Below, one piece after another: positions 8,739-27,781 of a DNA stretch of 45,812 bases. Within the stretch, counting starts at the first letter, position 1, and every line of letters starts with the position of its first letter. A program made the translations under genes and the position numbers. The stretch comes from Clostridia bacterium (lineage in GTDB: Bacteria > Bacillota > Clostridia > Oscillospirales > Acutalibacteraceae): contig JAFUPX010000039.1 of NCBI GenBank assembly GCA_017472575.1, positions 1 through 45,812 of the forward strand, in the 5' to 3' direction. The notes under the pieces are model-generated. The model made no database searches and was not told the origin of the DNA. It saw only the letters and a list, made by a program, of their open reading frames with translations.

Positions 8739-8754
8739 GTGTCCGATGGGACAC
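8739..8754. repeat. Inverted repeat GTGTCC-4-GGACAC
   Basis: Perfect 6-bp arms around GATG, between the mocR stop codon and the lipoprotein's ribosome site. The following T-run is too weak (ATTTTG) for a convincing terminator. It may be an operator, since its GTGTCCG half recurs at 7294 in the mocR control region, or a weak transcript end. Confidence 0.45.
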
Positions 8755-8772
8755 ATTTTGTGGGGGAAAAAG

Positions 8773-9816
8773 ATGTTAAAAAAAGTGTTATCCATTATTG
8801 TTTGTATTTGTTTGTTATCAGTCGCGGCAGGCTGTAAAAAGAAGACCGATACCTTAAGCGTTGATTCGGGAGATATTCCGTCCGCTCCGGTTGAGTCACA
8901 GGAGCAGATAGTGTATTCGGTAAATCCTCTTACCGGAATTGCCGAATTATCTGAGGATAAGGCAACCGACCGCCCTGTTGCAATAATGGTTAACAATATC
9001 AGCACCGCTCAGGGTGTGCAGACCGGTCTTACCGCTGCGGATATAGTTTATGAAACAGAGGTTGAGGGCGGAATTACAAGACTTTTAGCTGTTTATCAGG
9101 ATGTAACCAAGGCAGAGCGCATAGGCTCTGTACGCTCTGCGAGATATGCATACATAGATTTAGCTATGGGTCATAACGCAATTTATGTTCATCACGGTCA
9201 GGACCCCATATATGCGGCTCCCCATTTGAAGGACACTGATAACTATACTCTTTCAACCTCTAACGGAGGAGCGAGAATCAGTAACGGTCTTTCAAGCGAG
9301 CACACATTATATGCTTACGGTGATAAGCTGTGGACAAATATTATAAGCAGCGGCTGGAAAACAAAAAACAGCTCTGTTACCAACTGGCAAAATTTTGCCG
9401 CCGAGACAGCTCCTGTAACACTGCCTAATGCGGCAACAAGCGTTTCCGTACCTTTCTCAGCCAGCTATAAAACCACCTTTAATTATGATGCGGCAACAGG
9501 AAAATACACAAGATTATTCAACGGAACCGTCCGCAAGGATTACCTTTCAGGTGAAACCGAGAATTTTAAGAATGTATTTGTTTTAATGACCTCTATCAGC
9601 AACTATGCTGACGGTAAGCACAGAAAGATTGCTCTTTCTTCCGGCACAGGCTATTATTGCGTAAACGGAACCTATACTCAGATAAACTGGTCGAAGGGCA
9701 GTGCATCAAGCGGCTTTGTATTCACCAATACTGACGGTACTCCTTTAACGGTAAACCCCGGAAACTCATGGGTTTGCCTTGCGAATACATATACAACACA
9801 GCCTACCTTTCAATAA
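8773..9816 (+). CDS. DUF3048-family lipoprotein (YerB-like)
   Basis: A 347-residue exported lipoprotein. ATG 8773 follows a GGGGG ribosome site; the earlier in-frame ATG at 8746 lies inside the inverted repeat and lacks a ribosome site. The signal peptide ends in the lipobox VAAGC (Cys 21). The DUF3048 body is recognisable from NPLTGIAELSEDKATDRPVAIMVNN, AADIVYETEVEGGITRLLAVYQD and ERIGSVRSARYAYIDLA, with the companion C-terminal domain ending in GNSWVCLA. The molecular function is unknown; related Bacillus YerB is an envelope protein. It is a single-gene unit closed by a strong terminator. Confidence 0.9.
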   Translation: MLKKVLSIIVCICLLSVAAGCKKKTDTLSVDSGDIPSAPVESQEQIVYSVNPLTGIAELSEDKATDRPVAIMVNNISTAQGVQTGLTAADIVYETEVEGGITRLLAVYQDVTKAERIGSVRSARYAYIDLAMGHNAIYVHHGQDPIYAAPHLKDTDNYTLSTSNGGARISNGLSSEHTLYAYGDKLWTNIISSGWKTKNSSVTNWQNFAAETAPVTLPNAATSVSVPFSASYKTTFNYDAATGKYTRLFNGTVRKDYLSGETENFKNVFVLMTSISNYADGKHRKIALSSGTGYYCVNGTYTQINWSKGSASSGFVFTNTDGTPLTVNPGNSWVCLANTYTTQPTFQ

Positions 9817-9821
9817 AATAT

Positions 9822-9848
9822 AAAAGGGAACATTTTGTTCCCTTTTTT
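9822..9848 (+). terminator. Intrinsic terminator after the DUF3048 lipoprotein
   Basis: An 11-bp stem AAAAGGGAACA (9822-9832) / TGTTCCCTTTT (9836-9846) with a 3-base loop and continuing T residues. It ends 14 bases before trmB. Confidence 0.9.
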
Positions 9849-9862
9849 AATGGGTGAAAAAT

Positions 9863-10543
9863 ATGAGAATGAGAAAAAAGAAAAACCTTGAAGCAAGGTT
9901 AAACGCTGTTAAGGATTATCTTTATGTAAGTGACAGTGAGGACAGAAATTTTAACACCGCTGTTTTAAACAAAGATTATATTGATATAGATAATTGGTTT
10001 GGAGCTAAAAGACCGCTTTATCTTGAAATAGGATGCGGAAAGGGTAAATTCGCTTGCGAGTTTGCCGAAAGTAATCCTGATATAAATTTGCTTGCAGTTG
10101 AGAAAAACGCCAATGTTTTGGTGGAAGCCTGCGAAAAAGCACAGGAAAAAGGACTTAAAAATGTTAAATTCTTATAATGCGGTGCAGAATATCTTGAACG
10201 GCATTTAAAGGAAGGAAGTATCGAGAGGATTTTTCTTAATTTTTCCTGTCCGTTTCCGAAAAACAGTTATGCCGTTCACAGATTAACTCACAGCCGTTTT
10301 CTTAAAATATATAAACGGTTGCTCGCCAAGGGAGCTGAAATTCATCAGAAAACCGATAATATGCACTTTTTCGAGTTTTCTTTAGAACAGTTTAGCAATG
10401 AGAGCTTTGCGCTTAAAAACGTATCCCTTGATTTGCATAACTCAAATTTTGAGGGTAATATAGAAACCGAGTATGAGCATAGATTTGCGTCACTCGGTCA
10501 GCCTATTTACAGGCTTGAAGCGTATTTAAAAGAGGTGGAGTAA
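9863..10543 (+). pseudogene. trmB: trmB, tRNA (guanine-46-N7)-methyltransferase, split by one in-frame TAA
   Basis: Read through, the frame encodes a normal-length TrmB of about 226 residues. The first part starts MRMRKKKNLEARL (ATG 9863) and holds the SAM-binding motif LEIGCGKGKF and LLAVEKNANVL. It stops at TAA 10175-10177. The same frame then continues without a further stop: CGAEYLERHLKEGSIERIFLNFSCPFPKNSY, RLTHSRFLKIY, the substrate-binding EIHQKTDNMHFFEFS, and EGNIETEYEHRF. Motif order and quality are intact on both sides, and no indel is needed. The alternatives are a very recent nonsense mutation, readthrough of TAA, or a sequencing error. The truncated 104-residue product would lack the catalytic half. 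It overlaps rsmG by one base. Confidence 0.88.
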
Positions 10544-11262
10544 TGACAGATTTCGGAATTGAAAAAATAATTCCTTTATGTAAAGATTTCGGTTTAGGGC
10601 TTGATGCACAAGCTGTGGAGAGACTTAACTTATACGGCAATTTGTTGCTTAGCTGGAATGAGAAAATCAATCTTACCGCAATAACCGAGCCGGAAGAGGT
10701 TCTGTATAAGCATTTTTATGACTGTCTGCTTTTCTTTAAGAATGTAAAGCTTGAAAAGGGTGCCTCGGTTATAGATGTTGGTACGGGTGCCGGCTTTCCG
10801 GGACTTGTGCTTAAAATTGCGAGACCCGATATAAAACTGACTTTGCTTGACAGCCTTAACAAACGAATTAATTTTCTGAATGATGTTATAGCAAAACTAA
10901 ATTTAGAGGGTGTTACCGCTGTTCACGCAAGAGCCGAGGAGGCAGGCAAAAAAAGCGAATATCGAGAGAGATACGATATAGCCTGCGCAAGAGCGGTTGC
11001 AAGTCTGCCTGTACTGCTTGAATACTGTATGCCTTTTGTTAAAAAAGGCGGAGAATTTGTTGCGATGAAGGGTCCTTCTGCTAAAGAAGAAATGAGTAAA
11101 TCTAAAAACGCTTTAAGACTTCTCGGAGGGGGTCAAGCAAATATTATATGCGAAACCTTAACCGGAAATGAGCAAAGGAGCTTTATAACGGTAAAAAAGA
11201 TATCGCAAACTCCGCCAAAATATCCGCGTATATCCGCAAAAATATCAAAACAGCCGCTTTAA
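10543..11262 (+). CDS. rsmG: RsmG, 16S rRNA (guanine-527-N7)-methyltransferase
   Basis: A 239-residue GidB/RsmG protein that methylates G527 of 16S rRNA with SAM. The N-terminal segment NLYGNLLLSWNEKINLTAITEPEEVLYKHFYDCL is diagnostic. The SAM motif is VIDVGTGAGFPGLVLKI, followed by LLDSLNKRINFLNDV and CARAVASLPVLLEYCMPFVKKGGEFVAMKG. Its ATG overlaps the trmB stop by one base, so translation is probably coupled; the premature stop in trmB may weaken coupling. The neighbouring Noc/ParB-like gene matches the rsmG-noc arrangement known in Firmicutes. A terminator overlaps its stop codon. Confidence 0.95.
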   Translation: MTDFGIEKIIPLCKDFGLGLDAQAVERLNLYGNLLLSWNEKINLTAITEPEEVLYKHFYDCLLFFKNVKLEKGASVIDVGTGAGFPGLVLKIARPDIKLTLLDSLNKRINFLNDVIAKLNLEGVTAVHARAEEAGKKSEYRERYDIACARAVASLPVLLEYCMPFVKKGGEFVAMKGPSAKEEMSKSKNALRLLGGGQANIICETLTGNEQRSFITVKKISQTPPKYPRISAKISKQPL

Positions 11263-11280
11263 ATCGGCTGTTTTTGTGTT
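11247..11280 (+). terminator. Intrinsic terminator overlapping the end of rsmG
   Basis: Stem CAGCCG (11251-11256) / CGGCTG (11265-11270), extended by an A-run pairing the T-run TTTTTGTGTT. The rsmG stop codon lies in the loop region. Confidence 0.82.
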
Positions 11281-11356
11281 TTTAGCGCGCAAAAGGGCGA
11301 CGGGATTTTCTTTACAATTTATCATAAATCTGTAATAATTAAAACAGAAAAATTAT

Positions 11357-11432
11357 TGTTTAGCGCATTGCGCTAAACAGATGGCAGATGTTAGTAGCAG
11401 ACTGTCTGACATCTGTTATCTGATATCTGTTT
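11357..11432 (+). repeat. Compound hairpin repeat upstream of the Noc/ParB-like gene
   Basis: First hairpin: TGTTTAGCGC (11357-11366) / GCGCTAAACA (11370-11379), a perfect 10-bp stem with a 3-base loop. Overlapping it is a larger nested palindrome: AAACAGAT (11375-11382) with ATCTGTTT (11425-11432), CAGATGT (11385-11391) with ACATCTG (11409-11415), and AGAC (11399-11402) with GTCT (11404-11407). The two folds share 11375-11379, so they exclude each other. The gene's ribosome site AAAGGTGG begins at the last bases of the large hairpin. Confidence 0.75.
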
Positions 11433-11447
11433 AAAGGTGGCCGCAAT

Positions 11448-12278
11448 ATGCATACAATACCTGAAAAAAAGCTTATTATGTTACGACCAGATGAAATTTG
11501 CCCCTCCTCTAATCAGGCAAGAAAAAGCTTTGATGAGTATTCGCTCAAAACTCTTTCCGAAAGCATTGCCGCAAGCGGAGTTATACAGCCGGTAGCCGTT
11601 CGAAAGAGAAGAAACGGAAGATATGAGCTGATTTCGGGTGAAAAGCGTCTTCGTGCCGCCGTTCAGGCAGGTCTTCGAAGAGTCCCTTGCATAGTTTACA
11701 GGCTTGATGAGGAAACCGCCGCGATTTATTCTATCTCTGAAAATCTTCATAAGGGCGGACTTTCCTTTTTTGAAGAGGCCGCCGCTATACAAAGAGTTAT
11801 AAACAGATACGGTATGTCGGTTTCTGAGGCGGCGGAAAGGTTAGGTATTCCGCAGTCTGCGTTAATGAATAAATTAAGACTGTTACGCCTTGACGACTGC
11901 ACAAAACAGCGTATAACCGATGCTGAGCTTACAGAGCGCCATGCAAGAGCGTTGCTCAGAATTTCCGATGAAAAACGGGGGACAGTTCTTGAAAAAATTA
12001 TTTCGGATAGCCTTACCGCAAAGCAGACCGAGGAGCTTGTATATGATTTGCTTAATTCAAAGCAGAGTATTGCCCGTGAGGAGCCGGTAAGAAAATATGT
12101 AATAAATGATGTACGACTTTTTGCAAACAGCCTTACAAAGCTTGTTGATATGCTTCTTAATTCAGGCATTGATGCCCGTTCAAAAAAGTATGAAAACGAG
12201 AAATATATTGAATATCGCGTTCGGATTAATAAGGAGAACAACGATTCGAACGAATGTAAACAGTTAAAAATCTGTTAG
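11448..12278 (+). CDS. ParB/Noc-family DNA-binding protein
   Basis: A 276-residue ParB-fold protein. The N-terminal ParB CTPase domain shows IRP-like LRPDEICPSSNQARKSFD, ESIAASGVIQPVAVRKR, GEKRLRAAVQAGLRRVPCIV (residues 64-83, box II) and ISENLHKGGLSFFEEAAAIQ. A central helix-turn-helix (MSVSEAAERLGIPQSALMNKLRLLRL) and the ELTERHARALLRI motif follow, then a short C-terminal dimerisation region. Because it follows rsmG, it resembles Noc (nucleoid occlusion), which protects the chromosome from division and evolved from ParB. A plain ParB/Spo0J cannot be excluded; no parA is visible. Expression starts downstream of the rsmG terminator, through the compound hairpin leader. Confidence 0.88.
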   Translation: MHTIPEKKLIMLRPDEICPSSNQARKSFDEYSLKTLSESIAASGVIQPVAVRKRRNGRYELISGEKRLRAAVQAGLRRVPCIVYRLDEETAAIYSISENLHKGGLSFFEEAAAIQRVINRYGMSVSEAAERLGIPQSALMNKLRLLRLDDCTKQRITDAELTERHARALLRISDEKRGTVLEKIISDSLTAKQTEELVYDLLNSKQSIAREEPVRKYVINDVRLFANSLTKLVDMLLNSGIDARSKKYENEKYIEYRVRINKENNDSNECKQLKIC

Positions 12279-12309
12279 ATGTATCTCCCCTTTACATTTA
12301 ACGGTTTTT

Positions 12310-12341
12310 AAAACAGCCGCAGTGAAAACCGCGGCTGTTTT
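12310..12341. terminator. Terminator after the Noc/ParB-like gene
   Basis: An 11-bp stem AAAACAGCCGC (12310-12320) / GCGGCTGTTTT (12331-12341) with a 10-base loop. The A-rich and T-rich flanks make it usable in both directions between convergent genes. Confidence 0.82.
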
Positions 12342-12352
12342 CTATATAACGA

Positions 12353-12382
12353 AAACTGACTTCACTGATTGTAAAGTCAGCT
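12353..12382 (-). terminator. Probable ruvX terminator
   Basis: On the minus strand, CTGACTT (12374-12380) pairs with AAGTCAG (12356-12362) and is followed by TTTTC. The ruvX stop codon (12377-12379) lies within the 5' arm. Confidence 0.6.
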
Positions 12383-12799
12383 TTTAGTGTTTTTTCTGTA
12401 GTTTAGATAATCCTCGAGAATTATTACGGCGGCAACGGCATCTATTACCTGCTTGCGTTTTTTGCCGCGGGTATCGGTGTAGTTAAGCGCGGTATGTGCG
12501 GAAACAGTAGTACAGCGCTCGTCCCACAAAACAACCTCCACACCTGTTTTGTTTTTCACCGCTTCTGCGATTTGGGCACATTCCTTTGCTCGCTCACCCT
12601 CTGAGCCGTCCATATTCTTAGGGTGTCCAACAACGATAAGCGAGGGTCTTATTTCGTTTACATAAACGGCTATTTTTTCAATCAGCTTTTCCGTATTATA
12701 TTCGGTTATAACCGCTTTCGGAAAGGCGAAGCTCTCGGAGCTGTCACTTACAGCGATTCCTGTTCTTGCCTTGCCTAAATCAAGAGACATTATAATCAT
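12377..12799 (-). CDS. ruvX: RuvX/YqgF RNase H-fold nuclease
   Basis: A 140-residue YqgF-family protein, classed as a putative Holliday junction resolvase or pre-16S rRNA nuclease. It has the RNase H-fold start MSLDLGKARTGIAVSD with a catalytic Asp, VVGHPKNMDGSEGERAKEC with a conserved Glu, VVLWDERCTT, and the C-terminal QVIDAVAAVIIL Asp. Several ATGs open the protein; the first (12799) overlaps the stop of the upstream phosphatase, so the pair are translationally coupled. Length is typical. Confidence 0.93.
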   Translation of the reverse strand: MIIMSLDLGKARTGIAVSDSSESFAFPKAVITEYNTEKLIEKIAVYVNEIRPSLIVVGHPKNMDGSEGERAKECAQIAEAVKNKTGVEVVLWDERCTTVSAHTALNYTDTRGKKRKQVIDAVAAVIILEDYLNYRKNTKS

Positions 12800-13458
12800 T
12801 TTTCATTTACCACACTAACTATTCTGTTTCTTACAGGGATAAGACTTTTTGGCAGATGTGATGAATCATTCATATAAATCATTTTAACATTAAGCTCATC
12901 ATCAAATTCCAGAAGAGTGACCGCTGTATTATCGCTCCACGGTACATCCTTTAAATATTCTATACTGCCCTTGGTAATCCGGCAATTAAGGCAGCGCATA
13001 ACTCCGCCATGGGTTGCGGCGACAATAGTTTTGCCATCGTTTACTTTAGCTAAGGTTAAAACGGTTGCCCATATTCTCTCATAGGCTTCTCTCATAGGCT
13101 CTCCGCCCTCCGGAGCGAAGTCCTGAGGATGGTTGTTCCAAGCATCTGCAAGCCCCGGAATTTCACTGAATGCCTCGGCAAAGGGTCTGCCCTCAACCAC
13201 TCCTCCGCTAATTTCACGAAGACCTGAAATAGGTGTTACTTCAAGATTTTTCATATCTGCTATCGCGTGAGCAGTTTTCATTGCTCTGACAAGCGGACTT
13301 GAAAAGACCTTATCTATATGGATATTACAAAATCTTGCATGCAAAAATTCAAGCTGTTTAGCACCGGTTTCGCTTATATCAAGGTCTATTGACCCTTGAA
13401 AAACCCTCTGTAAATTTCCCATTGCCTCGCAATGGCGCACCAAATATATTCTTGTCAT
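12796..13458 (-). CDS. Histidine phosphatase family protein (phosphoglycerate mutase-like)
   Basis: A 220-residue branch-1 histidine phosphatase. The catalytic motif is RHCEAMGN (residues 8-15), where His 9 would be the phosphorylated residue; most relatives have RHG, so Cys replaces Gly. Other markers are SSPLVRAMKTA (second Arg), LREISGGVVEGRPFAE (acid residue) and the second catalytic His in ATHGGVMR near residue 150. The substrate is not predictable; relatives include CobC-like and GpmB-like phosphatases. The 3' end overlaps ruvX by 4 bases. Confidence 0.9.
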   Translation of the reverse strand: MTRIYLVRHCEAMGNLQRVFQGSIDLDISETGAKQLEFLHARFCNIHIDKVFSSPLVRAMKTAHAIADMKNLEVTPISGLREISGGVVEGRPFAEAFSEIPGLADAWNNHPQDFAPEGGEPMREAYERIWATVLTLAKVNDGKTIVAATHGGVMRCLNCRITKGSIEYLKDVPWSDNTAVTLLEFDDELNVKMIYMNDSSHLPKSLIPVRNRIVSVVNEK

Positions 13459-13550
13459 TTTATATCACCTGTTAAAGTATATCATACCTAAAAATTATTT
13501 ACAATATAAAAATATCACTGATAAGTTAATAAAAATCGGCATATATGCTA

Positions 13551-13578
13551 TTGTGTAATTTTAAAAAATATGTATAAT
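13551..13578 (+). promoter_or_regulatory. Probable promoter of the EIIC-nth unit
   Basis: TTGTGT (13551-13556), 16 bases, perfect TATAAT (13573-13578), 35 bases before the start codon. The start has an AAGGTGG ribosome site. Confidence 0.65.
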
Positions 13579-13612
13579 TAATATTAATGAATTTTTTTAA
13601 GGTGGAAGTAAA

Positions 13613-14665
13613 ATGATTAAGAAGTATCTTAACCGTCTTTTTATAGACGGACTCACAGGTATGGCATACGGCCTTTTCTCAACTCTTATTATCGGAACGA
13701 TAATCTGCCAAATAGGTAAAATTGTCGGGGATAATACAGTTGGAGCGTATATAAACGCAATCGGAAGCGTTGCCAAGACCGTAACGGGAGCAGGTATCGG
13801 CGTGGGAGTTGCCTGCAAATTAAAATCCTCACCCTTAACTACCGTATCGGCGGCGGTCGCAGGTCTTGTAGGAGCGTTTCCCAATGTCGGTATAGAAAGC
13901 TTTGCTGTTGGCTCGCCCGGAGAACCGCTCGGCGCTTTTATCGCGGCATATGTTGCGATTGAAATAGGCGGCTTAGTTTCGGGTAAAACTAAGGTTGATA
14001 TTATAGTAACTCCTATTTGCTGTATACTGGCAGGCTGTGCCGCAGGCTATTTTGTAGGTCCCTATATCTCAGCCGCTATGAAATGGATAGGCGCGCTTGT
14101 TAACATTAATGTGGAAAACAGTCCAATCCTTGGAGGTATAGCCGTTTCTGTTATTATGGGTATACTTCTTACTTTGCCTATTTCCTCCGCAGCTATCGGT
14201 GTTTCAATGGGACTAACGGGTCTTGCCGCAGGAGCGGCTACTATTGGTTGCTGCTGCAATATGGTCGGCTTTGCGGTTATAAGCTACAGGGAAAACAAAA
14301 TGGGCGGACTTATCGCTCAGGGTATAGGCACTTCTATGCTCCAGATGCCCAATATTGTGAGAAAGCCTATAATTTGGCTGCCCTCGATTATTTCAAGTGC
14401 AATTTTGGGACCGGTTGCCTCGGCAGTATTAAAAATGGTAAGCAATCCGGTAGGCTCGGGCATGGGCTCTGCGGGACTTGTGGGTCAGTTTATGGCTTAT
14501 GACAGTATGGTAGCCGCCGGAGTGTCCCCTGTTGTATCCTTGCTTGAAATCGCTCTTATGCACTTTGTTCTGCCTGCCGTTGTAACTCTCGGAATAGCTG
14601 AGGGAATGCGTAAATTAGGGCTTATAAAGAACGGAGATATGAAATTAGGAGACGCAAATGCGTAA
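13613..14665 (+). CDS. PTS EIIC-like membrane transporter (PTS_EIIC_2 family)
   Basis: A 350-residue, highly hydrophobic protein with about ten membrane segments and many Gly/Ala-rich helices (TGAGIGVGVACKLKSSPLTTVSAAVAGLVGAFPN, GLTGLAAGAATIGCCCNMVGFA, GLVGQFMAYDSMV). This fits the PTS_EIIC_2 family of sugar permease-like proteins. No EIIA or EIIB domain is fused or adjacent, so it is an orphan. Either it borrows partners encoded elsewhere or it is not a phosphotransferase permease in practice. The solute is unknown. It overlaps nth by 8 bases, an arrangement that says little about function. Confidence 0.78.
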   Translation: MIKKYLNRLFIDGLTGMAYGLFSTLIIGTIICQIGKIVGDNTVGAYINAIGSVAKTVTGAGIGVGVACKLKSSPLTTVSAAVAGLVGAFPNVGIESFAVGSPGEPLGAFIAAYVAIEIGGLVSGKTKVDIIVTPICCILAGCAAGYFVGPYISAAMKWIGALVNINVENSPILGGIAVSVIMGILLTLPISSAAIGVSMGLTGLAAGAATIGCCCNMVGFAVISYRENKMGGLIAQGIGTSMLQMPNIVRKPIIWLPSIISSAILGPVASAVLKMVSNPVGSGMGSAGLVGQFMAYDSMVAAGVSPVVSLLEIALMHFVLPAVVTLGIAEGMRKLGLIKNGDMKLGDANA

Positions 14666-15287
14666 AAAAGAGGTTACTGCTTTAGCAGTAGAGAGTCTTG
14701 AAAAACTGTATCCGGATGCGATTTGCTCTTTGCAGTATACCGATGCTTTTCAGCTTCTTATTGCAACAAGACTTTCGGCTCAGTGTACTGATGCGCGTGT
14801 AAATATGGTTACTCCGGCTCTGTTTGCCGAGTTTCCTGATGCCGCCTCCTTTGCAAAGGCTGATTTATCAAAAGTTGAGGAGCTTATAAAAACCTGTGGA
14901 CTTTATAAAACAAAGGCAAAGGATTTAATCGGTATAGGCAAAATGATAACCGATGTTTACGGCGGAATTGTTCCTGACAGTATCGAGGAATTAACAAAGC
15001 TGCCGGGGGTTGGAAGAAAAACAGCGAACCTTGTTTGCGGAGATATTTATAAAAAACCTGCTGTAGTTACGGATACTCATTTTATCCGACTTTGCAACCG
15101 TTTAGGATTGGTTAAAACAAAAGACCCCCGCAAGGTTGAGGATGAGATGCGAAAGCTTTTAGATCCTGCAAAATCAAACGATTTTTGCCACAGAGCTGTG
15201 CTTTTCGGCAGAGATATCTGTACTGCAAGGCGCGCTTATTGCGATAAATGCCCGATGAAGGATTTTTGCCCCAAAAAGGGTGTATAA
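14658..15287 (+). CDS. nth: Endonuclease III (DNA glycosylase/AP lyase)
   Basis: A 209-residue base-excision repair enzyme that removes oxidised pyrimidines and cuts the abasic site. LSAQCTDARVN, the helix-hairpin-helix LPGVGRKTANLVCG with the catalytic Lys, and VVTDTHFIRLCNRLGL with the catalytic Asp are all present. The C-terminal [4Fe-4S] site has exact spacing, C-x6-C-x2-C-x5-C (ICTARRAYCDKCPMKDFC). Length and motifs are complete. The start overlaps the EIIC gene by 8 bases. Confidence 0.97.
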   Translation: MRKKEVTALAVESLEKLYPDAICSLQYTDAFQLLIATRLSAQCTDARVNMVTPALFAEFPDAASFAKADLSKVEELIKTCGLYKTKAKDLIGIGKMITDVYGGIVPDSIEELTKLPGVGRKTANLVCGDIYKKPAVVTDTHFIRLCNRLGLVKTKDPRKVEDEMRKLLDPAKSNDFCHRAVLFGRDICTARRAYCDKCPMKDFCPKKGV

Positions 15288-15326
15288 ATGTTTATAAAAA
15301 GCTTAAAATAAAATATTGGTGATACA

Positions 15327-16253
15327 ATGTATATTGTTATTATTATAATAGCTTTTGCTATTCTTATTTCGATTGCCGCAGGATGCTTTCTAATGGCATT
15401 CGTGCGTAAATATCAGCCGTTTGTTGACGATATTGATGCTCCCGAAAATGAATTCCTCAAGGACTACTACGATATTGTTAAGGACGGTATGAAATATATT
15501 GAAACCGCCGAGCATAAGTGGGTAAGAACAAAAAGCTTTGACGGACTTTGCCTTGCCGCACGGTACTATCCAAAGGAAAACAGCGATACAACGGTTATTC
15601 TGTTTCACGGCTACCGCTCCTCTGCAAAAAGAGATTTTTCCTGTGCTGTGAAGATGTATTCTGATTTAGGACTTAATGTTTTACTGGTAGACCAGCGAAG
15701 CCACGGCAAAAGTGAAGGAAAGCTTATTTGCTTCGGTGTTAAAGAGAGACGGGATGTTTTAAGCTGGATAGACTTTGTCCTGAAAAATTACGGTGAGCAG
15801 ACAAAAATTTTCTTGGGCGGAATGTCTATGGGGGCGACTACTGTTCTTTTAAGCGCAGGGCTTAATTTACCCAAAAATGTTAAGGGAATAATTGCAGACT
15901 GTGGATTTACTTCACCTGTAGAGATAATAGCCAAGGTGGCAAAACAGCATTTCAGGGTTAAGGGATATGTTTTGATACCGATTATGAGTTTATTCTGCCG
16001 TATTTTCGGACATTTCGGTATCTACGGTATTTCAACAGTTGACGCACTTAAAAAATCAAATGTGCCTGTTCTGCTGTTCCACGGCGAGTCGGATGACTTT
16101 GTACCTGTTGAAATGAGCCGTAAAAACTATGAGAGTGCGGCTTGCGAAAAGGAAATTCACACAGTTCCAAACGCTTCTCACGGCTTTAGCTATTTTTTAG
16201 ATACAAAGGGTGTAATTTCAAAGGTTAATTCGTTTGTAAACCGAAACAAATGA
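15327..16253 (+). CDS. Membrane-anchored alpha/beta hydrolase (S33-like)
   Basis: A 308-residue alpha/beta hydrolase with one N-terminal membrane helix (residues 2-25) and no lipobox. The oxyanion segment is VILFHGYRSSAKRDF. The nucleophile elbow is LGGMSMGATTVLL (Ser near residue 172). The acid is likely in LLFHGESDDFVPVEMS, and the catalytic His in PNASHGFSYFLD near residue 290. It resembles YqkD/BAAT-like bacterial hydrolases of unknown substrate, placed at the membrane with the catalytic domain on one side. It stands alone between nth and a lipoprotein. Confidence 0.88.
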   Translation: MYIVIIIIAFAILISIAAGCFLMAFVRKYQPFVDDIDAPENEFLKDYYDIVKDGMKYIETAEHKWVRTKSFDGLCLAARYYPKENSDTTVILFHGYRSSAKRDFSCAVKMYSDLGLNVLLVDQRSHGKSEGKLICFGVKERRDVLSWIDFVLKNYGEQTKIFLGGMSMGATTVLLSAGLNLPKNVKGIIADCGFTSPVEIIAKVAKQHFRVKGYVLIPIMSLFCRIFGHFGIYGISTVDALKKSNVPVLLFHGESDDFVPVEMSRKNYESAACEKEIHTVPNASHGFSYFLDTKGVISKVNSFVNRNK

Positions 16254-16256
16254 CGG

Positions 16257-16285
16257 TTGACATTTTTCTATTTAAATAATAAAAT
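16257..16285 (+). promoter_or_regulatory. Strong sigma-A promoter of the lipoprotein gene
   Basis: Perfect -35 TTGACA (16257-16262), 17-base spacer, -10 TAAAAT (16280-16285). It starts right after the stop codon of the hydrolase. Confidence 0.88.
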
Positions 16286-16316
16286 ATATTATATAAATAT
16301 ATTGGGAGTTATCCGT

Positions 16317-17069
16317 ATGAAAAGGCTTTTAAAATTAACAGCGCTTATATGTATTCTCGGCATTGTTACAGGGCTTTCGGCTTGCAGTAAGGTGGATAAG
16401 GAGTATGGGGTTGAAAGCCAGACCTCAGATACAGCATCAATTGTATCCTTTGTGGAAAAGGACCCTGATTATGATTATCCGGAAATTATGTCGGACGACA
16501 GAACTATTTCCAAATACATTGATATCAGCAAGTATGACGAGGAGAATTATGCGGACATATATCTCGGAAAAAGATTTGATATCGAAGCCGTTTATGACGG
16601 CGCTGAGCTACCCGTTCCGTCCTCCTATAAAAAGCTTACCAAAAACGGCTGGCAGTTGGTTGAAAACAGTAAATACGATGAAAATTCAACAGTTTTCTCC
16701 TGTGAAACCGTTGAGACTGAGTTTGTAAACGCAAACGGCAAAAAGCTTACGGTAATCTTTTACAATTCAAAGGATTCCTCGGTTAAACTAAGCGAGTGCA
16801 ATATTGTTAAGTTTAGAATAGAAAACAACTGCCTTTTCACCGCTGAAAGTGAATACGGAGATTTCAATATCGGAGGAGTTATGAACAGCTCGGCAATAAC
16901 CGATATAATCGATACTCTGGGCGCTCCCTCGCATTTTTATGCAGTTTCGGATAGCCAGTATTATTTTGATTACTTCTTAACTGAGAAGGACCGAAGAAAC
17001 GGAATAACAGTTTATTTTGATGTTGCCGAGGACTCGGTTACATCAATTGAATGGTCATATTATAAATAA
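16317..17069 (+). CDS. Putative lipoprotein of unknown function
   Basis: A 250-residue exported protein. ATG 16317 has GGGAG 8 bases upstream; the longer form would begin inside the promoter's -35 region. The signal peptide is MKRLLKLTALICILGIVTG with lipobox LSAC (Cys 23). The mature part is rich in Asp, Glu, Ser and Tyr, and its middle (LPVPSSYKKLTKNGWQLVEN) may form a small repeated beta fold. I cannot assign a family with confidence. It has its own strong promoter and a following hairpin, so it is probably well expressed. Confidence 0.82.
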   Translation: MKRLLKLTALICILGIVTGLSACSKVDKEYGVESQTSDTASIVSFVEKDPDYDYPEIMSDDRTISKYIDISKYDEENYADIYLGKRFDIEAVYDGAELPVPSSYKKLTKNGWQLVENSKYDENSTVFSCETVETEFVNANGKKLTVIFYNSKDSSVKLSECNIVKFRIENNCLFTAESEYGDFNIGGVMNSSAITDIIDTLGAPSHFYAVSDSQYYFDYFLTEKDRRNGITVYFDVAEDSVTSIEWSYYK

Positions 17070-17070
17070 A

Positions 17071-17104
17071 GATTGCCTCTCCATAAGGAGGGGCAATAAT
17101 TTTA
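17071..17104 (+). terminator. Hairpin after the lipoprotein, leaky terminator or attenuator
   Basis: ATTGCC-CTCC (17072-17082) pairs with GGAG-GGCAAT (17087-17097) with one internal T-G pair and a 4-base loop. It is followed only by AATTTT, so readthrough into the DUF1015 gene is possible. Confidence 0.65.
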
Positions 17105-17116
17105 AAAGGAGAAGTT

Positions 17117-18313
17117 ATGAAGAAAAGTTTTATGCCGGCAGATATTTTACTGCCAAAAAAAGATTTTGAAAAATGGGCGGTTGTCGCGTGCGACCAATAT
17201 ACCTCCGAGCCCGAATACTGGAAGCAGGTTGAAGATAATGTTGGGAAAGCCGCCAGTGCCTACAATATAATTCTTCCTGAGGCATATCTTGAAAGTGATA
17301 CCGAAAGCAGAATAGGTAAAATAAATAGTACAATGCTTTCTTACATAGAATCCGGTGTTTTTGAAGAAATAAAAAATACATTTGTTTATGTTGAGCGAGA
17401 GGTTACAGGCGGAAAGATAAGAAAGGGAATAGTAGGAGTTATTGACCTTGAGGATTATGATTATCGCAAGGGCAGTAAGGCTCTGATTAGAGCTACCGAG
17501 GAAACCGTGCTTGAAAGAATACCGCCGAGGGTTAAGATTCGTAAGGACGCAATACTTGAAATGCCCCATATAATGCTGTTGGTAGACGACCCTGATAAAA
17601 AGGTTATTGAGCCGCTGGCACTAAAAAAAGCTGATTTTAAAAAGCTTTATGATTTTGCTCTAATGCAAAACAGCGGAAAAATAAGCGGATATGCAGTAGA
17701 TGAAGAAAGTGCTAAGGCGGTTCAGTCTGCACTTGAACAAATAGAAAACTCATCAGACGATAAAATGCTTTTTGCCGTGGGAGACGGCAATCACTCTTTA
17801 GCTACCGCAAAGGAATGTTATGCTATCAATAAAACTCCCGAGTCAAGATATGCGCTTGTTGAGGTTGTAAATATCCACGATGAATCTCTCCAATTTAAGC
17901 CGATTTACAGGGTGGTTTTCGGCGCAGACCCAGAAAGCCTCATAAACGCTCTTAAAGAGGAAATCGGCGAATATCAGGGAGTGGATGCGCAGAAGTTTAC
18001 CTGCGTTTTCGGGCGAACTGAGATAAAGCTTTCCTTAAAACCGTATTCAAAGCTTGCGGTAGGAACACTTCAGGGCTTCCTTGATAGATATATTAAGGAA
18101 AATAAGGGTGTTAGTATTGACTATATCCACGGCGAAAATGTTGTGTACTCGCTTGCAAAAAAAGAAAACACAGTAGGCTTTATTTTTGACGGTATGAGAA
18201 AGGATGAGTTGTTTGATGCTGTAAAGCAGGACGGCTCCTTGCCCAGAAAAACCTTTTCTATGGGCCACGCAAGTGATAAACGCTTTTATATCGAGGCAAG
18301 GAAGATTAAGTGA
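17117..18313 (+). CDS. DUF1015 family protein
   Basis: A 398-residue protein of the DUF1015 family. Typical markers are PADILLPKKDFEKWAVVACDQYTSEPEYWKQVEDNVG at the N-terminus, a central RKGIVGVIDLEDYDY, and the most conserved segment FAVGDGNHSLATAKECY near residue 220. The family is distantly related to the ParB/Srx fold, and some members (archaeal SerK) phosphorylate free serine, so a small-molecule kinase role is conceivable but unproven here. A GGAG ribosome site precedes ATG 17117. No serine biosynthesis genes are adjacent. Confidence 0.88.
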   Translation: MKKSFMPADILLPKKDFEKWAVVACDQYTSEPEYWKQVEDNVGKAASAYNIILPEAYLESDTESRIGKINSTMLSYIESGVFEEIKNTFVYVEREVTGGKIRKGIVGVIDLEDYDYRKGSKALIRATEETVLERIPPRVKIRKDAILEMPHIMLLVDDPDKKVIEPLALKKADFKKLYDFALMQNSGKISGYAVDEESAKAVQSALEQIENSSDDKMLFAVGDGNHSLATAKECYAINKTPESRYALVEVVNIHDESLQFKPIYRVVFGADPESLINALKEEIGEYQGVDAQKFTCVFGRTEIKLSLKPYSKLAVGTLQGFLDRYIKENKGVSIDYIHGENVVYSLAKKENTVGFIFDGMRKDELFDAVKQDGSLPRKTFSMGHASDKRFYIEARKIK

Positions 18314-18346
18314 AACTAAAACCTCCGCTTTTGCGGAGGCTTTAGT
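18314..18346. terminator. Strong bidirectional terminator between DUF1015 and hydA
   Basis: CCTCCGC/GCGGAGG stem with a TTTT loop, extended by AACTAAA/TTTAGTT arms. A T-run on each strand allows it to end both the DUF1015 transcript and the long minus-strand hydrogenase operon. Confidence 0.9.
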
Positions 18347-18351
18347 TTTAA

Positions 18352-19776
18352 TTATTTTAAAACAGATATTGCGTCGGAAATGGTTTTTTCATAGGCTTCT
18401 TTTCCGTATTTATCTACTTCTGCTTTATTTTTTTCGCCGTGGGTCAGGCATCCGGCACCACCGATACAGCCGCCGATACACGCCATACCCTCAATGAAGT
18501 TTGCATCGAGCACATTTTTGCTCTTTTTAAGAAGAGCCATTCGGCAGGCTTCTATACCGTCACACGAAACGGCTTTTAATTCAAAGTTGTTAATATCCTG
18601 CTCCTTTAGGGCTTGGGCTACAGCGTCGGCAAGTCCGCCGCAACGGGCGAAAATTCTGCCGTAGTAGGAGGCGTTATCAAGCACACCTTCTTCAAGCTGA
18701 GTAATATCTATTTCCTTGCTGTCAAACAAAGCCTGAAGCTCTTCAAAGGTGAGAACCGCGTCAATATAAGGCTTAACAGATTCAAGCTGTGCTTCGGCTT
18801 TTTTTGCTGTGCAGGGACCTATGAATACAATTTTTGAATTTTTGGTTGTTTCCTTAATATATTTCGCTATTGTTGCCATAGGGGAGAGGTTGTGCGAAAC
18901 AAAGGGTGCTAAATCAGGAAATGCGGATTTAACATAGGAAACAAATGCAGGGCAGCAGGAACTGGTTAAAAAGCCTTTTTCGGCAAGCTCTTTCGACTCG
19001 GAGTAAGCCACCATATCAGCGCCGAGAGCCGCCTCAACAACGGTATGGAAGCCAAGTGTCTTTAGACCTGTTATAACCTGACCTAATTTCGCATAGGTGA
19101 ACTGACTTGAGATAGAGGGAGCTACAAGCGCGTAAATTCTGTAATTTCTGCCTTGTTCACTTTTTTTGAGCAAATCAATAACATTAAGAATATATGATTT
19201 ATCAGTAATAGCACCAAAGGGACACTGATAAACGCAGGCTCCGCAGGAGGTACATTTACTGTTATCTATTTTAGCCGCTTTGTTTTCATCCATCGAAATT
19301 GCTTTTATCTTGCAGGCATTCTGGCAGGGACGTTTGCGGCTGACTATTGCGGTATAAGGGCAGACCTTTGCACAGGCTCCGCATTCAACGCACTTTGTTT
19401 TGTCAATATGTGCCACGTGATTATGGTCAAAGGAAATTGCTCCTCTTTTGCAAACATCCTCGCAGCGGTGAGCAAGGCAGCCGCGGCAGGCATTTGTAAC
19501 CTCGTATCCTCCGACGGGACATTCGTCACAGGCTATATCTATAACCTGAATAACATTTGTATCCTCGGCGTTACCTCCCATGGCAAGCTTTACTCTCTCA
19601 CCTAAAATCGCGCGCTCCTTATAAACGCAGCAGCGCATAGTTGGCTGATTGCCGGGAACTATCTTGAGGGGAATATCCATAACATTCTCAAGCAGGGTAT
19701 CGGCCCATGCGTGTTTTGCTACCTCTCTTAATACCTTATATTTAAGATGTTGAACTTTTGTATCAAATTTCCTCAT
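18352..19776 (-). CDS. [FeFe] hydrogenase, group B-like catalytic subunit (HydA2 type)
   Basis: A 474-residue ferredoxin-dependent hydrogenase candidate. The N-terminal half carries many Cys ligands: an unusual region (CDEC 83-86, CRGC 97-100, CEDVC 105-109), then two typical 4Fe-4S sites (CVECGACAKVC 129-139, CTSCGACVYQC 175-185) with an extra CQNAC (151-155). The H-cluster ligands sit in TSSCCPAF (Cys 274/275), IGPCTAKK (Cys 322) and EGMACIGGCIGG (Cys 433 and 437). All four bridging positions are kept, so it should be active. The order of N-terminal clusters and the PAF/GPC motif variants fit group B rather than group A. It is last in the operon. It probably reduces protons with reduced ferredoxin during fermentation. 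Confidence 0.9.
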   Translation of the reverse strand: MRKFDTKVQHLKYKVLREVAKHAWADTLLENVMDIPLKIVPGNQPTMRCCVYKERAILGERVKLAMGGNAEDTNVIQVIDIACDECPVGGYEVTNACRGCLAHRCEDVCKRGAISFDHNHVAHIDKTKCVECGACAKVCPYTAIVSRKRPCQNACKIKAISMDENKAAKIDNSKCTSCGACVYQCPFGAITDKSYILNVIDLLKKSEQGRNYRIYALVAPSISSQFTYAKLGQVITGLKTLGFHTVVEAALGADMVAYSESKELAEKGFLTSSCCPAFVSYVKSAFPDLAPFVSHNLSPMATIAKYIKETTKNSKIVFIGPCTAKKAEAQLESVKPYIDAVLTFEELQALFDSKEIDITQLEEGVLDNASYYGRIFARCGGLADAVAQALKEQDINNFELKAVSCDGIEACRMALLKKSKNVLDANFIEGMACIGGCIGGAGCLTHGEKNKAEVDKYGKEAYEKTISDAISVLK

Positions 19777-19785
19777 TTTTTTCTC

Positions 19786-20958
19786 CTAAAAATAACTCAC
19801 TTTAATGCGTTTGCCCATTTTCTTTAAGCATTCCGAAAGCTCCTCAACAAGATTCATTTTTATGTTGAAGTTTATGGGAAGGTCGGGATTCTGATGAGCG
19901 GGATTTACCGCTCTGCCGACATAGAAGTTTATATCGGTTGCTTCCTCAAAAAGAAGTCTGCTAATTAATGAAGCACCGTCTCGCTTGAAGCTCCAATGCT
20001 CATAGCTTTCATTGTCCTTAAGATAGTCCTTTGCATAGGTAAGCACCTTATTAACGGTTATAACACCCTCGGTAACAAGGTCAACTCCCTCAATCTCAGC
20101 TATGGGCGGAACATCACTGCTTTCGAAATTTATGCTTGCTTTAAGAGGCTTTCCTAAATACTTTGCGGCAATGGAGGAGGTGGTTCCTCCGCAGATGATA
20201 TGCTTACCTGCCTTTGAGAAGAAAAGGGACATCATTCTGTCGCAATCGTCTCTGTTAGAGGGAGGACCGAAAAGCAGATTCATAGGCTCTCTTTTTCTTA
20301 TTCTCACAACGCAGGAGGTTGCATCGTCCCCAGGGAGGTTTCCGTAGAGCTTGTTGCACTCGTCAACAAGTATAGTTGAAAGTGTTTTAGCGGTATAGCC
20401 TACAGGAGCCAACCCTTCCATAAAGGACGCAATATCCTCTCTTTTCCAGCCAAAGTTAAAGGCTGTGCCTATTCCGGCATGGGGACAGCCGTCACTCATA
20501 GCAACGAAAATATCGTTTTCCTGTAATTTTATAACCGATTTATATATCTTTTTTCCGCCGATATTCATTTCAGTTTTGGGATAATCATAATTTGAATAGT
20601 CTCTTATAAGAATAACAAGCGGATTGTCATACTGGATTATCTCGGCGGTTTCATTGTTTTTAAGATGGATTATGGTAAAGGTTGAATACGCAACACCGCG
20701 GGCAGAGCAGACAGGAAGCGTTGCGGCTATTGTAGAAACACATTCTTCAAGGGGCAAGCCCTCAGCCATCATAGTTGAAATAATTTTTGAGGTTAAGGTT
20801 GAGAGAATACTCGCCTTAACTCCGCTGCCCAAGCCGTCTGCCAAAACTATAACGGTTGAATTGTCATTCTGCTCAACTATGTCAACATGGTCTCCGCAAA
20901 GCTGCTCACCGTAATGATTTATACTCTTATATCCTATATCTGCACATAAATCATTCAT
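19786..20958 (-). CDS. SpoIIE/PP2C-type serine/threonine phosphatase linked to HydS
   Basis: A 390-residue protein. The N-terminal 230 residues are a PPM/SpoIIE phosphatase with metal-binding motifs VIVLADGLGSGVKAS (residues 35-50), FVAMSDGCPHAG and LPGDDATSCVVRI. The C-terminal 150 residues (from about LLFGPPSNRDD) form a separate domain I cannot name, with HIICGGTTSSIAAKYLG reminiscent of a nucleotide- or ligand-binding loop. Its start overlaps the end of hydS by 8 bases, so sensor and phosphatase are made together. This is the known pairing for group C sensory hydrogenases, and the phosphatase is probably the output that changes a Ser/Thr-phosphorylated target. Confidence 0.88.
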   Translation of the reverse strand: MNDLCADIGYKSINHYGEQLCGDHVDIVEQNDNSTVIVLADGLGSGVKASILSTLTSKIISTMMAEGLPLEECVSTIAATLPVCSARGVAYSTFTIIHLKNNETAEIIQYDNPLVILIRDYSNYDYPKTEMNIGGKKIYKSVIKLQENDIFVAMSDGCPHAGIGTAFNFGWKREDIASFMEGLAPVGYTAKTLSTILVDECNKLYGNLPGDDATSCVVRIRKREPMNLLFGPPSNRDDCDRMMSLFFSKAGKHIICGGTTSSIAAKYLGKPLKASINFESSDVPPIAEIEGVDLVTEGVITVNKVLTYAKDYLKDNESYEHWSFKRDGASLISRLLFEEATDINFYVGRAVNPAHQNPDLPINFNIKMNLVEELSECLKKMGKRIKVSYF

Positions 20959-22627
20959 CGGAAATAGACTCCTTTAGCTTTGAAAGCGCAATTTTGGTTT
21001 CAGCAGCCGTTTCTCCTAAGAGTGAGGCAATTTCCTGAACAATGCGCATTTGCTTGTCAACAACATTGTCGGCTATTTCAACCGTCTGCCGGCTGATGCT
21101 TTCCTTTTTCTCGCGCTCGTTCTCCTCATCGGTAACGTCACGCATAATACATATAAGCAGGTGATAATCCTTATCATAAACAACCGTCTGCTCAACGTAT
21201 CTTTGATATTCAGCCAGATAAACTCTTTTATCGGATACACCTCTACCGGTTCTGAGCACTTCAAGGAAAACGGCGGGGTCAAGAATTCTTACTACCTGAT
21301 CTCCTAAAATATCAGATGCTCTGCGGATATTCATTATCTTTCTCGCCGCTGCATTTATCTGCTGAACCTCAAGGTTTTCGTTGAGAACTATCAGTCCGTT
21401 AGGGGTGTTTTTAACTATTGTATCTGAAAAGCTTTCGGCTTTATCCTTAAGGAAGGGCAGACACATTGAAATTTCAGCCTTTCCCTGATAAATAGCAATT
21501 GCCTTTTCTCGGCATGTGTTGTAGCCGCAGGAGCCGCAATTAAGCTCATCTGAGGGCTTGAATTTACCCATCTGGCGAAGTATGTTATTTATTTCATCAT
21601 CACTGGGATTTTGTGAGCGGCGTTCGATAAACTCAAAGCTTTTCTTTAAAGAAACTGTGTCGGGCTGAGCAACGTCAAAATCCTCTTTTCCGGCAAATCG
21701 GGAAACCGCCATAAAATCCTTAACGGGGGAGCGGTGGTATTTTTCCATAACCGGACCGCCGATACAGCTGCCTATACAGGCTGACATCTCAATAAAACAA
21801 TTATGAATTTTTCCGCTTTCTATATCCTTTAAAGCGGCAATACAGTTTTCAACACCGTCAATAGCCATATAGGTGTATTTTTCTTCCCTTTCCTGCATAG
21901 TTTTGAGAATTCCGCCGGTTGTTGGGAAAAGTCGTGCTCGGCTTTGCTCGTTTTTTAATATCTCTTGAGTAAGCTCTATTCCCTCGTCATTAAGCCAGGC
22001 TGTAAGCTCCTCAAAGGTGAGAACAGCGTCAATAATTCCCTCATAATGCTCCGCCTCGTCCTTTTTGGCAACGCAGGGTCCTATAAATACAACCTTGGCA
22101 TCGGGATAACGCTTTTTTAAATCAAGACCGTGTGCCTGCATAGGGGATACAACATCTGCGAGGTATTGCAGCTCATTGGGAAAATATTTTTGAATCAGCA
22201 GATTTACGGAATGGCAACAGGAGGAAATAAGAATATCCTTATTGTCTTCCTTTAAAATACGCTCGTATTCACTCTTTACAAAGGTTGCTCCCACAGCTGT
22301 TTCCTCAACATCAAAGAAGCCCAGCTGTTTTAAAGCATTACGCATAGATTTAATTCCGACACCCTCGTAATTTGCTATAAACGAGGGAGCAAGACTGACA
22401 ACCACCCTTGCGCCGCTTTGAAGCATAACCTTAACCTTTTCGGTTTCGTCAACTATTTGCTTTGCATCCTGCGGGCATACAACGAAGCACTGACCGCAAA
22501 GTATACATTCATTTCCTATGATATGAGCCTGATTGCCTGAAAAGCGAATTGATTTAACAGGGCAGTGGCGAATACATTTGTAGCAGTTTTTACAGTTGGA
22601 TTTTTTAAGGGTCATACAGTTTGGCAT
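20951..22627 (-). CDS. hydS: HydS, putative sensory [FeFe] hydrogenase (group C) with PAS domain
   Basis: A 558-residue multidomain protein. Order: two N-terminal 4Fe-4S sites (Cys 12-22 and 41-51); an H-cluster domain with ISSCCHSVN (Cys 137/138), IGPCVAKK (Cys 185) and MSACIGSCIGG (Cys 284 and 288); a further FeS site CGSCGYNTC plus Cys 389 (364-389); a PAS domain at about 400-500 (NTPNGLIVLNENLEVQQINAAARKIM); and a C-terminal helical tail. H replaces P after the Cys pair, unlike catalytic enzymes. The group C family is thought to sense H2 or redox state and signal through fused or adjacent domains. It sits between the thioredoxin-like ferredoxins and the phosphatase. Confidence 0.93.
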   Translation of the reverse strand: MPNCMTLKKSNCKNCYKCIRHCPVKSIRFSGNQAHIIGNECILCGQCFVVCPQDAKQIVDETEKVKVMLQSGARVVVSLAPSFIANYEGVGIKSMRNALKQLGFFDVEETAVGATFVKSEYERILKEDNKDILISSCCHSVNLLIQKYFPNELQYLADVVSPMQAHGLDLKKRYPDAKVVFIGPCVAKKDEAEHYEGIIDAVLTFEELTAWLNDEGIELTQEILKNEQSRARLFPTTGGILKTMQEREEKYTYMAIDGVENCIAALKDIESGKIHNCFIEMSACIGSCIGGPVMEKYHRSPVKDFMAVSRFAGKEDFDVAQPDTVSLKKSFEFIERRSQNPSDDEINNILRQMGKFKPSDELNCGSCGYNTCREKAIAIYQGKAEISMCLPFLKDKAESFSDTIVKNTPNGLIVLNENLEVQQINAAARKIMNIRRASDILGDQVVRILDPAVFLEVLRTGRGVSDKRVYLAEYQRYVEQTVVYDKDYHLLICIMRDVTDEENEREKKESISRQTVEIADNVVDKQMRIVQEIASLLGETAAETKIALSKLKESISDE

Positions 22628-22638
22628 CTGTTTTTACC

Positions 22639-22890
22639 TCACTTTCCAAGCTTTTCTAAAACATTTTCTCTAAAAAATTCTTTAAAGGTTTCTTTGGTGA
22701 TACCGGTATAGATTTCATCGTCAACCTGAACCGTTACTCCTATACGGTTGCATTTGCCTATACAAAAGCTGCCGGCAAGTGTAATTTCGTTTTCAAGCTG
22801 ATTTTCCAAAACTGCGCTTTGAAGCAGTTCGATTATATCCTGAGAACCCTTTAAATGGCAGGAACTGCCCACGCAGACCTGAATAATCAT
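22639..22890 (-). CDS. Thioredoxin-like [2Fe-2S] ferredoxin (second copy)
   Basis: An 83-residue single-domain protein of the NuoE/HymA-like thioredoxin-fold ferredoxin family. The four ligands are in CVGSSCHLKG near the N-terminus and FCIGKC in the middle. ATG 22890 is preceded by GGTGGAG; the longer reading has no ribosome site. It is followed 11 bases later by hydS. It is a paralogue of the gene just upstream. It probably carries electrons to or from the HydS/HydA proteins, acting like the small subunit of multimeric hydrogenases but without the rest of that complex. Confidence 0.88.
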   Translation of the reverse strand: MIIQVCVGSSCHLKGSQDIIELLQSAVLENQLENEITLAGSFCIGKCNRIGVTVQVDDEIYTGITKETFKEFFRENVLEKLGK

Positions 22891-22948
22891 TTTACTCACT
22901 CCACCTGAAATGTGACAGAGTATATTACACTCTGCCACATCCATTTAA

Positions 22949-23188
22949 TTATAATGCTTTTTTAATGTTTTCTTCGAAGAAATCCTTTACGGAGTCGGGA
23001 GTAACTGAGAAGAACGTATCGTCAACCATAACGCAAACGCCCTTTTGGCAGTTACCCATGCAGAAAGTGCCGCCAAGCTCGACCTTATCGCCGAGATTTT
23101 CCTCAGCAATAAGATACTGAAGCTGTTCAACAACCTTGTGGGAGCCTTTAATGTGGCAGGAGCTGCCTATACAAACCGTAACCTTCAT
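22949..23188 (-). CDS. Thioredoxin-like [2Fe-2S] ferredoxin (first copy)
   Basis: A 79-residue protein with CIGSSCHIKG and FCMGNCQKGVC, the same thioredoxin-fold ferredoxin family as the next gene. The two align along their whole length (shared GSSCH-KGS, VDD, K-FFEEN) but differ at many positions, so this is an old duplication and not a recent one. An extra Cys (KGVC) could modify the cluster site. A GGAGAA ribosome site precedes ATG. It lies between the APH-like kinase and its paralogue in the operon. Confidence 0.88.
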   Translation of the reverse strand: MKVTVCIGSSCHIKGSHKVVEQLQYLIAEENLGDKVELGGTFCMGNCQKGVCVMVDDTFFSVTPDSVKDFFEENIKKAL

Positions 23189-23204
23189 TATTTTCTTCTC
23201 CTTA

Positions 23205-23954: not shown

Positions 23955-23971
23955 TTTCTACACCCCACAAA

Positions 23972-26587: not shown

Positions 26588-26628
26588 TTAACAGGTCTCC
26601 TTTTTAAAATTTGCTGTTTATTTTCTGT

Positions 26629-26646
26629 TTGTTAATATTTTAACAC
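26629..26646. promoter_or_regulatory. Rex (redox repressor) operator
   Basis: TTGTTAA-TATT-TTAACAC is one base short of the perfect palindrome TTGTTAA-4-TTAACAA, the Rex site known from clostridia. It covers the -10 box of the adhE promoter, so binding would block polymerase. Rex releases DNA at high NADH/NAD+. The rex gene is not in the window. Confidence 0.87.
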
Positions 26647-26665
26647 ACTTTTATTCTGTTGGCAA
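26637..26665 (-). promoter_or_regulatory. Promoter of the adhE-hyd operon
   Basis: On the minus strand: -35 TTGCCA (26660-26665), exactly 17 bases, -10 TAAAAT (26637-26642), embedded in the Rex palindrome. Only short gaps follow between the seven downstream genes (overlap to 58 bases), and I see no strong internal terminator. Confidence 0.85.
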
Positions 26666-26714
26666 TTATATTATACATATATGGGTTATATAATTTTTGA
26701 TATACCTAATTATT

Positions 26715-27596: not shown

Positions 27597-27729
27597 ATAT
27601 TTTCCCCCTTATTCCTTTTAGATTATATCAAAAAACAGCTAAGAAATAAATAAAAAATTTAAATATTTATAATAATTATATACTTTATTAAAAAATATGG
27701 AAAAATATTTAAAAATTCTTTTTTTGTGA

Positions 27730-27758
27730 TTGCAAGGGGACAAAGTATTTGGTATAAT
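27730..27758 (+). promoter_or_regulatory. Promoter of the metF-metH operon
   Basis: TTGCAA (27730-27735), 17 bases, perfect TATAAT (27753-27758). The start codon is only about 17 bases beyond the expected transcript start, so there is no room for a T-box or SAM riboswitch. The 150 bases upstream are almost pure AT and could bind the divergent LysR protein. Confidence 0.85.
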
Positions 27759-27781
27759 TCATTAGAAAGAAGGAAGATGAA

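Follow-up and report, generated by a model that had tools for sequence, protein, structure and literature searches.

A lone in-frame stop codon in trmB of a Clostridia metagenome-assembled genome is most likely a consensus base error

Overview

In the window, that is, the whole stretch of 45,812 nucleotides analyzed here, the gene trmB for tRNA (guanine46-N7)-methyltransferase is interrupted by a single in-frame TAA. This TAA is very probably a consensus base error of the draft metagenome-assembled genome (MAG) of an uncultured gut bacterium, and in the living organism codon 105 most likely specifies an amino acid and trmB is intact. The interruption does exist in the assembled sequence, but most likely it is an artefact and has no biological meaning. 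This reading is favored because the stop is private to the window's genome (1 of 63 genus genomes with trmB), unique stops also occur in infB, secA, recR, and guaA of the same assembly, and three of the ten differences between a contig of this assembly and a near-identical one elsewhere look like random miscalls, from which 0.7–1.1 false stops are predicted in the window. In addition, frameshift-like breaks are not in excess and trmB carries no other damage, both of which point in the same direction.

The trmB gene and its neighborhood

The features of the locus are the following:

8746-9816, DUF3048 protein
9863..10174, forward strand, N-terminal part of trmB (104 codons; SAM-binding half), matching PF02390 1-55 and NF001080 39-101
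10175..10177, forward strand, in-frame TAA; genus rows have Lys (AAA/AAG) in 27 of 33 and other sense codons in 6 of 33
10178..10543, forward strand, C-terminal part of trmB (121 codons plus the gene's own stop), matching PF02390 62-173 and NF001080 106-222
10531..10538, forward strand, purine-rich AGAGGTGG, candidate ribosome-binding site before rsmG, read by eye
10543..11262, forward strand, rsmG, intact (TIGR00138, E 1.2e-53), with a start that shares one base with the trmB stop
11448-12278, ParB/Noc-type gene

The gene spans 9863-10543, opens with an ATG at 9863, and continues after its only in-frame TAA (10175-10177) in the same frame, with no indel, as an uninterrupted stretch from 10178 to 10540 that ends at the terminal stop (10541-10543). 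The earlier note had described exactly this arrangement from the letters alone, and its coordinates, its frame, and its assignment of both halves to TrmB are borne out by profile searches, in which the N-terminal half matches NF001080 (E 2.2e-15) and TIGR00091 (E 1.7e-14), the C-terminal half matches the same families (E 9.7e-28 and 1.6e-22, respectively), and the two cover consecutive profile positions (39-101 and 106-222 of 224). Each half alone stays below the NF001080 cut-off of 132, and the whole gene, with one TAA inside, scores 127.5 bits against PF02390 (cut-off 24); thus, it belongs to the TrmB family, and it is the methyltransferase domain itself that the TAA interrupts.

To the relatives with which it was compared, the sequence 3' of the stop is 60-82% identical. 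In an alignment of 86 near-full rows, made up of the window's TrmB and of others at least 60% identical to it, with lower or partial rows omitted, the window's TrmB never departs on its own from a residue that all the other rows share. An old, decaying pseudogene was rejected on these grounds, since the only lesion is one stop and the invariant columns are intact; the earlier remark that a decayed pseudogene would show more damage was therefore right and counts against old decay. A second trmB, which the earlier note had proposed to look for, was not found by profile search in the window's genome (81.6% complete, 1.207 Mb in 46 contigs), where the sole other PF02390 match is partial and, at 22 bits, below the cut-off.

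The one-base overlap of the trmB stop with the rsmG ATG at 10543 is also present as described. Nevertheless, the suggested effect of the internal stop on coupled translation of rsmG is speculative, because rsmG is undamaged and is preceded by a purine-rich site of its own. The gene order 5' of rsmG, compared between the window and loci L057, L058, and L059, varies in the genus, with mnmG in G075, G077, and G079 and DUF3048 plus trmB in the window (8746-11262), and trmB adjoins rsmG in 14 of 33 genus loci, some of which end early. Downstream of rsmG, a palindrome, GTTTAGCGC..GCGCTAAAC, is a small intergenic repeat that occurs twice, with a similar flank, in the stretches examined of this genome (11348-11400 of the window and G000:C6:30628-30681, G000 being the window's genome); the pattern is absent from the set of the comparison genome G083 and from the set of 80 relatives' loci.

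Distribution of trmB and of the stop in the genus

With matches accepted up to an E value of 1e-10, trmB is present in 63 of the 70 genus genomes, the window's included, and the stop occurs in the window's only. The seven genomes in which the gene is missing compare with 7.4 expected from their listed completeness, so that the lack of trmB elsewhere in the genus was rejected as support for a real loss. In three of the seven (G075, G077, and G079), rsmG follows mnmG directly with no trmB between, an absence that is indistinguishable from an unbinned contig because trmB adjoins rsmG in 14 of 33 loci; G003, G005, and G013 also lack a full rsmG match, and that of G071 is partial only.

The comparison of the codon in relatives that the earlier note had recommended gave a sense codon in all 33 genus rows, encoding Lys in 27 (AAA or AAG) and Gly, His, Cys, Gln, or Arg in the other 6, and the TAA is one base away from the relatives' commonest codon. 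Judged from aligned residues, the stop column is a tolerant position, since Lys occupies it in 46 of 95 distinct rows of the Cys-type TrmB described below and ten other residues occupy it in the remainder. A near-identical copy of the trmB locus was not found among 394 genomes of the order, where the best-scoring DNA match to 9400-11400 is 69% identical, nor was one of 10500-30499 among the 70 genomes (best-scoring match 79% identical). The separate contig scan of relatives may omit the window's own genome or near ones.

Other interrupted genes in the same assembly

A survey of 1.166 Mb of the window's assembly used as queries the proteins of G083 and of the 80 relatives' loci, which cover ~459 kb of the window's genome and reveal five genes with in-frame stops. 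A coding-score screen added two genes and one probable case. The interrupted genes, with their contigs and loci in the window's genome, are the following:

trmB, TAA, the window; relatives' protein survey
infB, TAA, C6 (L146); relatives' protein survey
secA, TAA, C38 (L210); relatives' protein survey
recR, TAG, C23 (L168); relatives' protein survey
S11 D-Ala-D-Ala carboxypeptidase, two adjacent in-frame TGA, C6 (L146); relatives' protein survey
guaA, TAA, C21 (L160); coding-score screen
SBP_bac_8 solute-binding protein, TAA, C28 (L201), both pieces matching PF13416; coding-score screen
FAD-binding protein, probably interrupted, TAA, C20 (L159), family match from the downstream piece only; coding-score screen

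Four of these genes were followed through the genus, where infB has a match in 66 of the 70 genomes, secA in 68, recR in 67, and the N-terminal domain of guaA in 22; in each case, the stop lies inside the match in the window's genome only, for genes that were picked because they are interrupted here and are no random sample. As guaA is absent from 48 of the 70 genomes at the limit used, it provides no evidence from an indispensable gene. Translation initiation factor IF2, encoded by infB, and SecA are indispensable, and a cell lacking them could not live; therefore, the sequence is not to be taken at face value unless its stops are read through.

Only one of the controls yielded a real interruption. 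The nine raw flags in the window's genome comprise six in the five genes and three just upstream of a start, whereas none of the 16 raw flags in G083 (~446 kb covered) is real, 13 being antisense to a longer ORF, one just beyond such an ORF, and two at gene boundaries. The 80 relatives' loci (~277 kb) gave two raw flags, of which one, in L069, is a real interruption and the other is a gene boundary. By exposure, the probability that at least five of six interruptions fall in the window's genome is 0.036. The window's assembly thus has an excess of unique internal stops, indispensable genes included, as would be expected from assembly or base-call error.

The coding-score screen yielded 25 candidates in the window's genome vs 10 in G083; infB, secA, guaA, and the SBP_bac_8 gene were accepted and the FAD-binding protein was kept as probable, and the others were dismissed on visual inspection as likely starts of the next gene or frames that do not code. 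Its count is a minimum, because it misses trmB itself (downstream score -0.13). TAA, TAG, and TGA all occur among the interrupted genes. In the seven certain genes, TAA makes up 5 of 8 stops where 39% would be expected (P 0.16), and with the probable FAD-binding protein it makes up 6 of 9 (P 0.09), so that a bias in stop type is not decisive.

Frameshift-like breaks are not in excess in the window's assembly, with one in the window's genome vs one plausible in G083, where another is probably antisense. The former lies in truB (G000:C6:6994-7898, L146), both pieces of which match TIGR00431, and its second part reads in frame without a stop into the next ORF, a separate gene in G083.

Interrupted genes were also seen in other genomes. 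At L069:2753-3667, a WYL-domain regulator that is a full-length single ORF in relatives is cut by one in-frame TAA at 3182. In G084 (C1:91143-92854), infB is split between two matches that abut but differ in frame, which looks like a frameshift and is perhaps another assembly error.

A near-identical contig in a second assembly

Contig C33 of G072 (5,053 bp, L328) aligns end to end with G000:C21:8441-13493 at 99.8% identity, with no gaps and 10 differences. The guaA of G072 is 99.6% identical to that of the window's genome, its trmB is 72% identical, and its recR is not among the closest; C33 is thus probably a mis-binned contig of the window's species, or else the product of a recent transfer.

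Seven of the 10 differences are synonymous transitions and three are transversions, all three nonsynonymous, a split for which hand calculation gives a probability of 1 in 120. Read from G072 to the window's genome, the transversions change Gln to Leu in glmS (identified by a TIGR01135 match), Leu to the stop in guaA, and Met to Leu in guaA. Homologues, with G072 counted, have Ser, Asn, Gln, Asp, or Glu at the glmS site in 14 of 14 and Leu or Phe at the guaA stop site in 22 of 22, and at the other guaA site the 20 homologues have Met in 8, Thr in 11, and Leu in 1. Judged by these residues, the window's assembly is the deviant one at all three sites, and the 10 differences are most simply read as natural variation at synonymous sites to which a few random miscalls were added.

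The implied base-call error rate is 4-6 per 10 kb. With a nonsense fraction of 4.5% and an assumed 88% of coding sequence, two errors in 5,053 bp (the guaA stop left out) would give 0.7 false stops in the window and 19 genome-wide, and three (the guaA stop counted) would give 1.1 and 28. One stop in the window is what such an assembly should contain, and we infer that the trmB TAA is to be counted among its random miscalls.

A clade-wide Cys-type TrmB

In the window, the motif NFSCPFPKNSYAVHRLTH (10238-10291) carries Cys where the DPW motif of TrmB has its catalytic Asp, Asp144 of the E. coli enzyme. In the Cys-type TrmB, Asp144 is replaced by Cys, Trp146 by Phe or Tyr, His151 by Tyr, and Arg154 mostly by His, a mapping to E. 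coli numbering that rests on motif spacing and in which Asp144 is taken to equal Asp133 of A. aeolicus, whereas Arg155, Asp180, Thr217, and Glu220 (E. coli numbering) are kept in the window and in all 110 distinct homologues. A family-based sample of 49 rows gave Cys in 34 (all 33 genus rows and G050), Asp in 14, and Asn in 1, its 16 rows from other families having Asp in 14, Asn in 1, and Cys in 1; a further 80 loci are unfit to measure the frequency of Cys, since one of the patterns used to find them includes that residue. The Cys-type occurs across the window's genus and more widely, the cultured Ruminococcus albus AR67 (L127) included; L037, L024, and L049 are among its other examples.

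The departure from the catalytic Asp of TrmB is, therefore, clade-wide and unrelated to the stop, and catalytic decay was rejected as support for a loss of trmB, since the SCPFPK motif is shared throughout the clade. Position G46 is kept in 9 of 10 five-base tRNA variable loops of the window's genome and in 12 of 15 of G083. Being so well conserved, the Cys-type TrmB should be under selection; it lacks a residue that the E. coli enzyme needs and possibly has an altered chemistry or substrate. A limited literature search found nothing on Cys replacing Asp in TrmB of Ruminococcus.

Alternative explanations

The four options named in the earlier note were recent loss, a polymorphism, a base error, and programmed readthrough. 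The rest of the genome favors the base error, and programmed readthrough is unsupported; a recent loss or polymorphism is conceivable, yet it is not needed in an assembly with unique stops in infB and secA.

A real and very recent nonsense mutation, by which the strain or part of its population lost TrmB and the m7G46 methylation of tRNA, is unlikely, even if it is the strongest of the alternatives. A stop one base from the relatives' commonest codon, the absence of further damage, and the lack of a second trmB in the 82%-complete genome are all consistent with it; moreover, disruption of trmB in E. coli causes no phenotypic defect according to a review (PMC6320965), so that a true nonsense allele could survive, and other trmB phenotypes are alluded to in the abstract of PMC10130221. 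Nevertheless, the genus otherwise keeps trmB, its few absences being matched by incompleteness, and the unique stops in infB and secA would need a separate explanation. The possible survival of such an allele counts against the consensus error, as do the best DNA matches of 69% and 79%, which offer no independent copy of the locus, the interruptions elsewhere (the WYL regulator in L069 and infB in G084), the choice of the genus-tested genes for being interrupted here, and the somewhat over-represented TAA.

Stop-codon readthrough, whether programmed or general, that yields full-length TrmB, IF2, SecA, and others is very improbable. If the sequence were right, the interrupted infB and secA would require it, and the stops, if real, would mean wholesale readthrough; a small-genome gut bacterium would then tolerate all three kinds of stop in indispensable genes through efficient general readthrough, which is just as hard to credit. 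Against readthrough, a stop at the site occurs in none of the 62 other genus genomes with trmB, all three stop codons are affected, two uninterrupted RF-1-domain genes are present, the guaA stop is Leu in the near-identical assembly, and, as weak evidence from an incomplete set, no suppressor anticodon exists among 20 tRNAs found in 1.166 Mb.

That TrmB works as two separate polypeptides, both parts of which are preserved, is least credible of all, given that no in-frame ATG, GTG, or TTG lies within the first 47 codons 3' of the TAA (the ATG overlapping it at 10177-10179 is in a different frame), that trmB is uninterrupted in 62 of 63 genus genomes, and that the methyltransferase domain itself is cut.

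Reading the stop as a consensus error averts a mistaken claim that a tRNA modification was lost, and it warns against equating single stops in this assembly with gene loss.

Comparison with known systems

Cooley and Wright (2024; PMC11017572) report that assembly errors account for many bacterial pseudogenes, that low-quality reads chiefly increase internal stops, and that the counts of internal stops follow assembly error or identity to the true genome. The window's assembly shares with the spurious pseudogenes described there single internal stops that interrupt genes intact elsewhere, cluster in one assembly, and come with no excess of frameshifts; it differs in being a MAG, a class of genome outside the scope of that study.

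The window protein matches TrmB families along its length and keeps the KTDN and TEYE motifs of known TrmB, the sequences of the solved structures 2FCA, 7NYB, and 1YZH being matched by a relative (L037), whereas the internal stop is the window's alone. The E. coli enzyme needs R26, D144, H151, R154, R155, D180, T217, and E220, and its D144A variant is more than 150-fold slower, as stated in PMC10130221; likewise, replacement of Asp133 abolishes the activity of A. aeolicus TrmB according to the review (PMC6320965). In the window's clade, by contrast, the catalytic Asp is replaced by Cys and His151 by Tyr, and the residue at Arg154 is mostly His.
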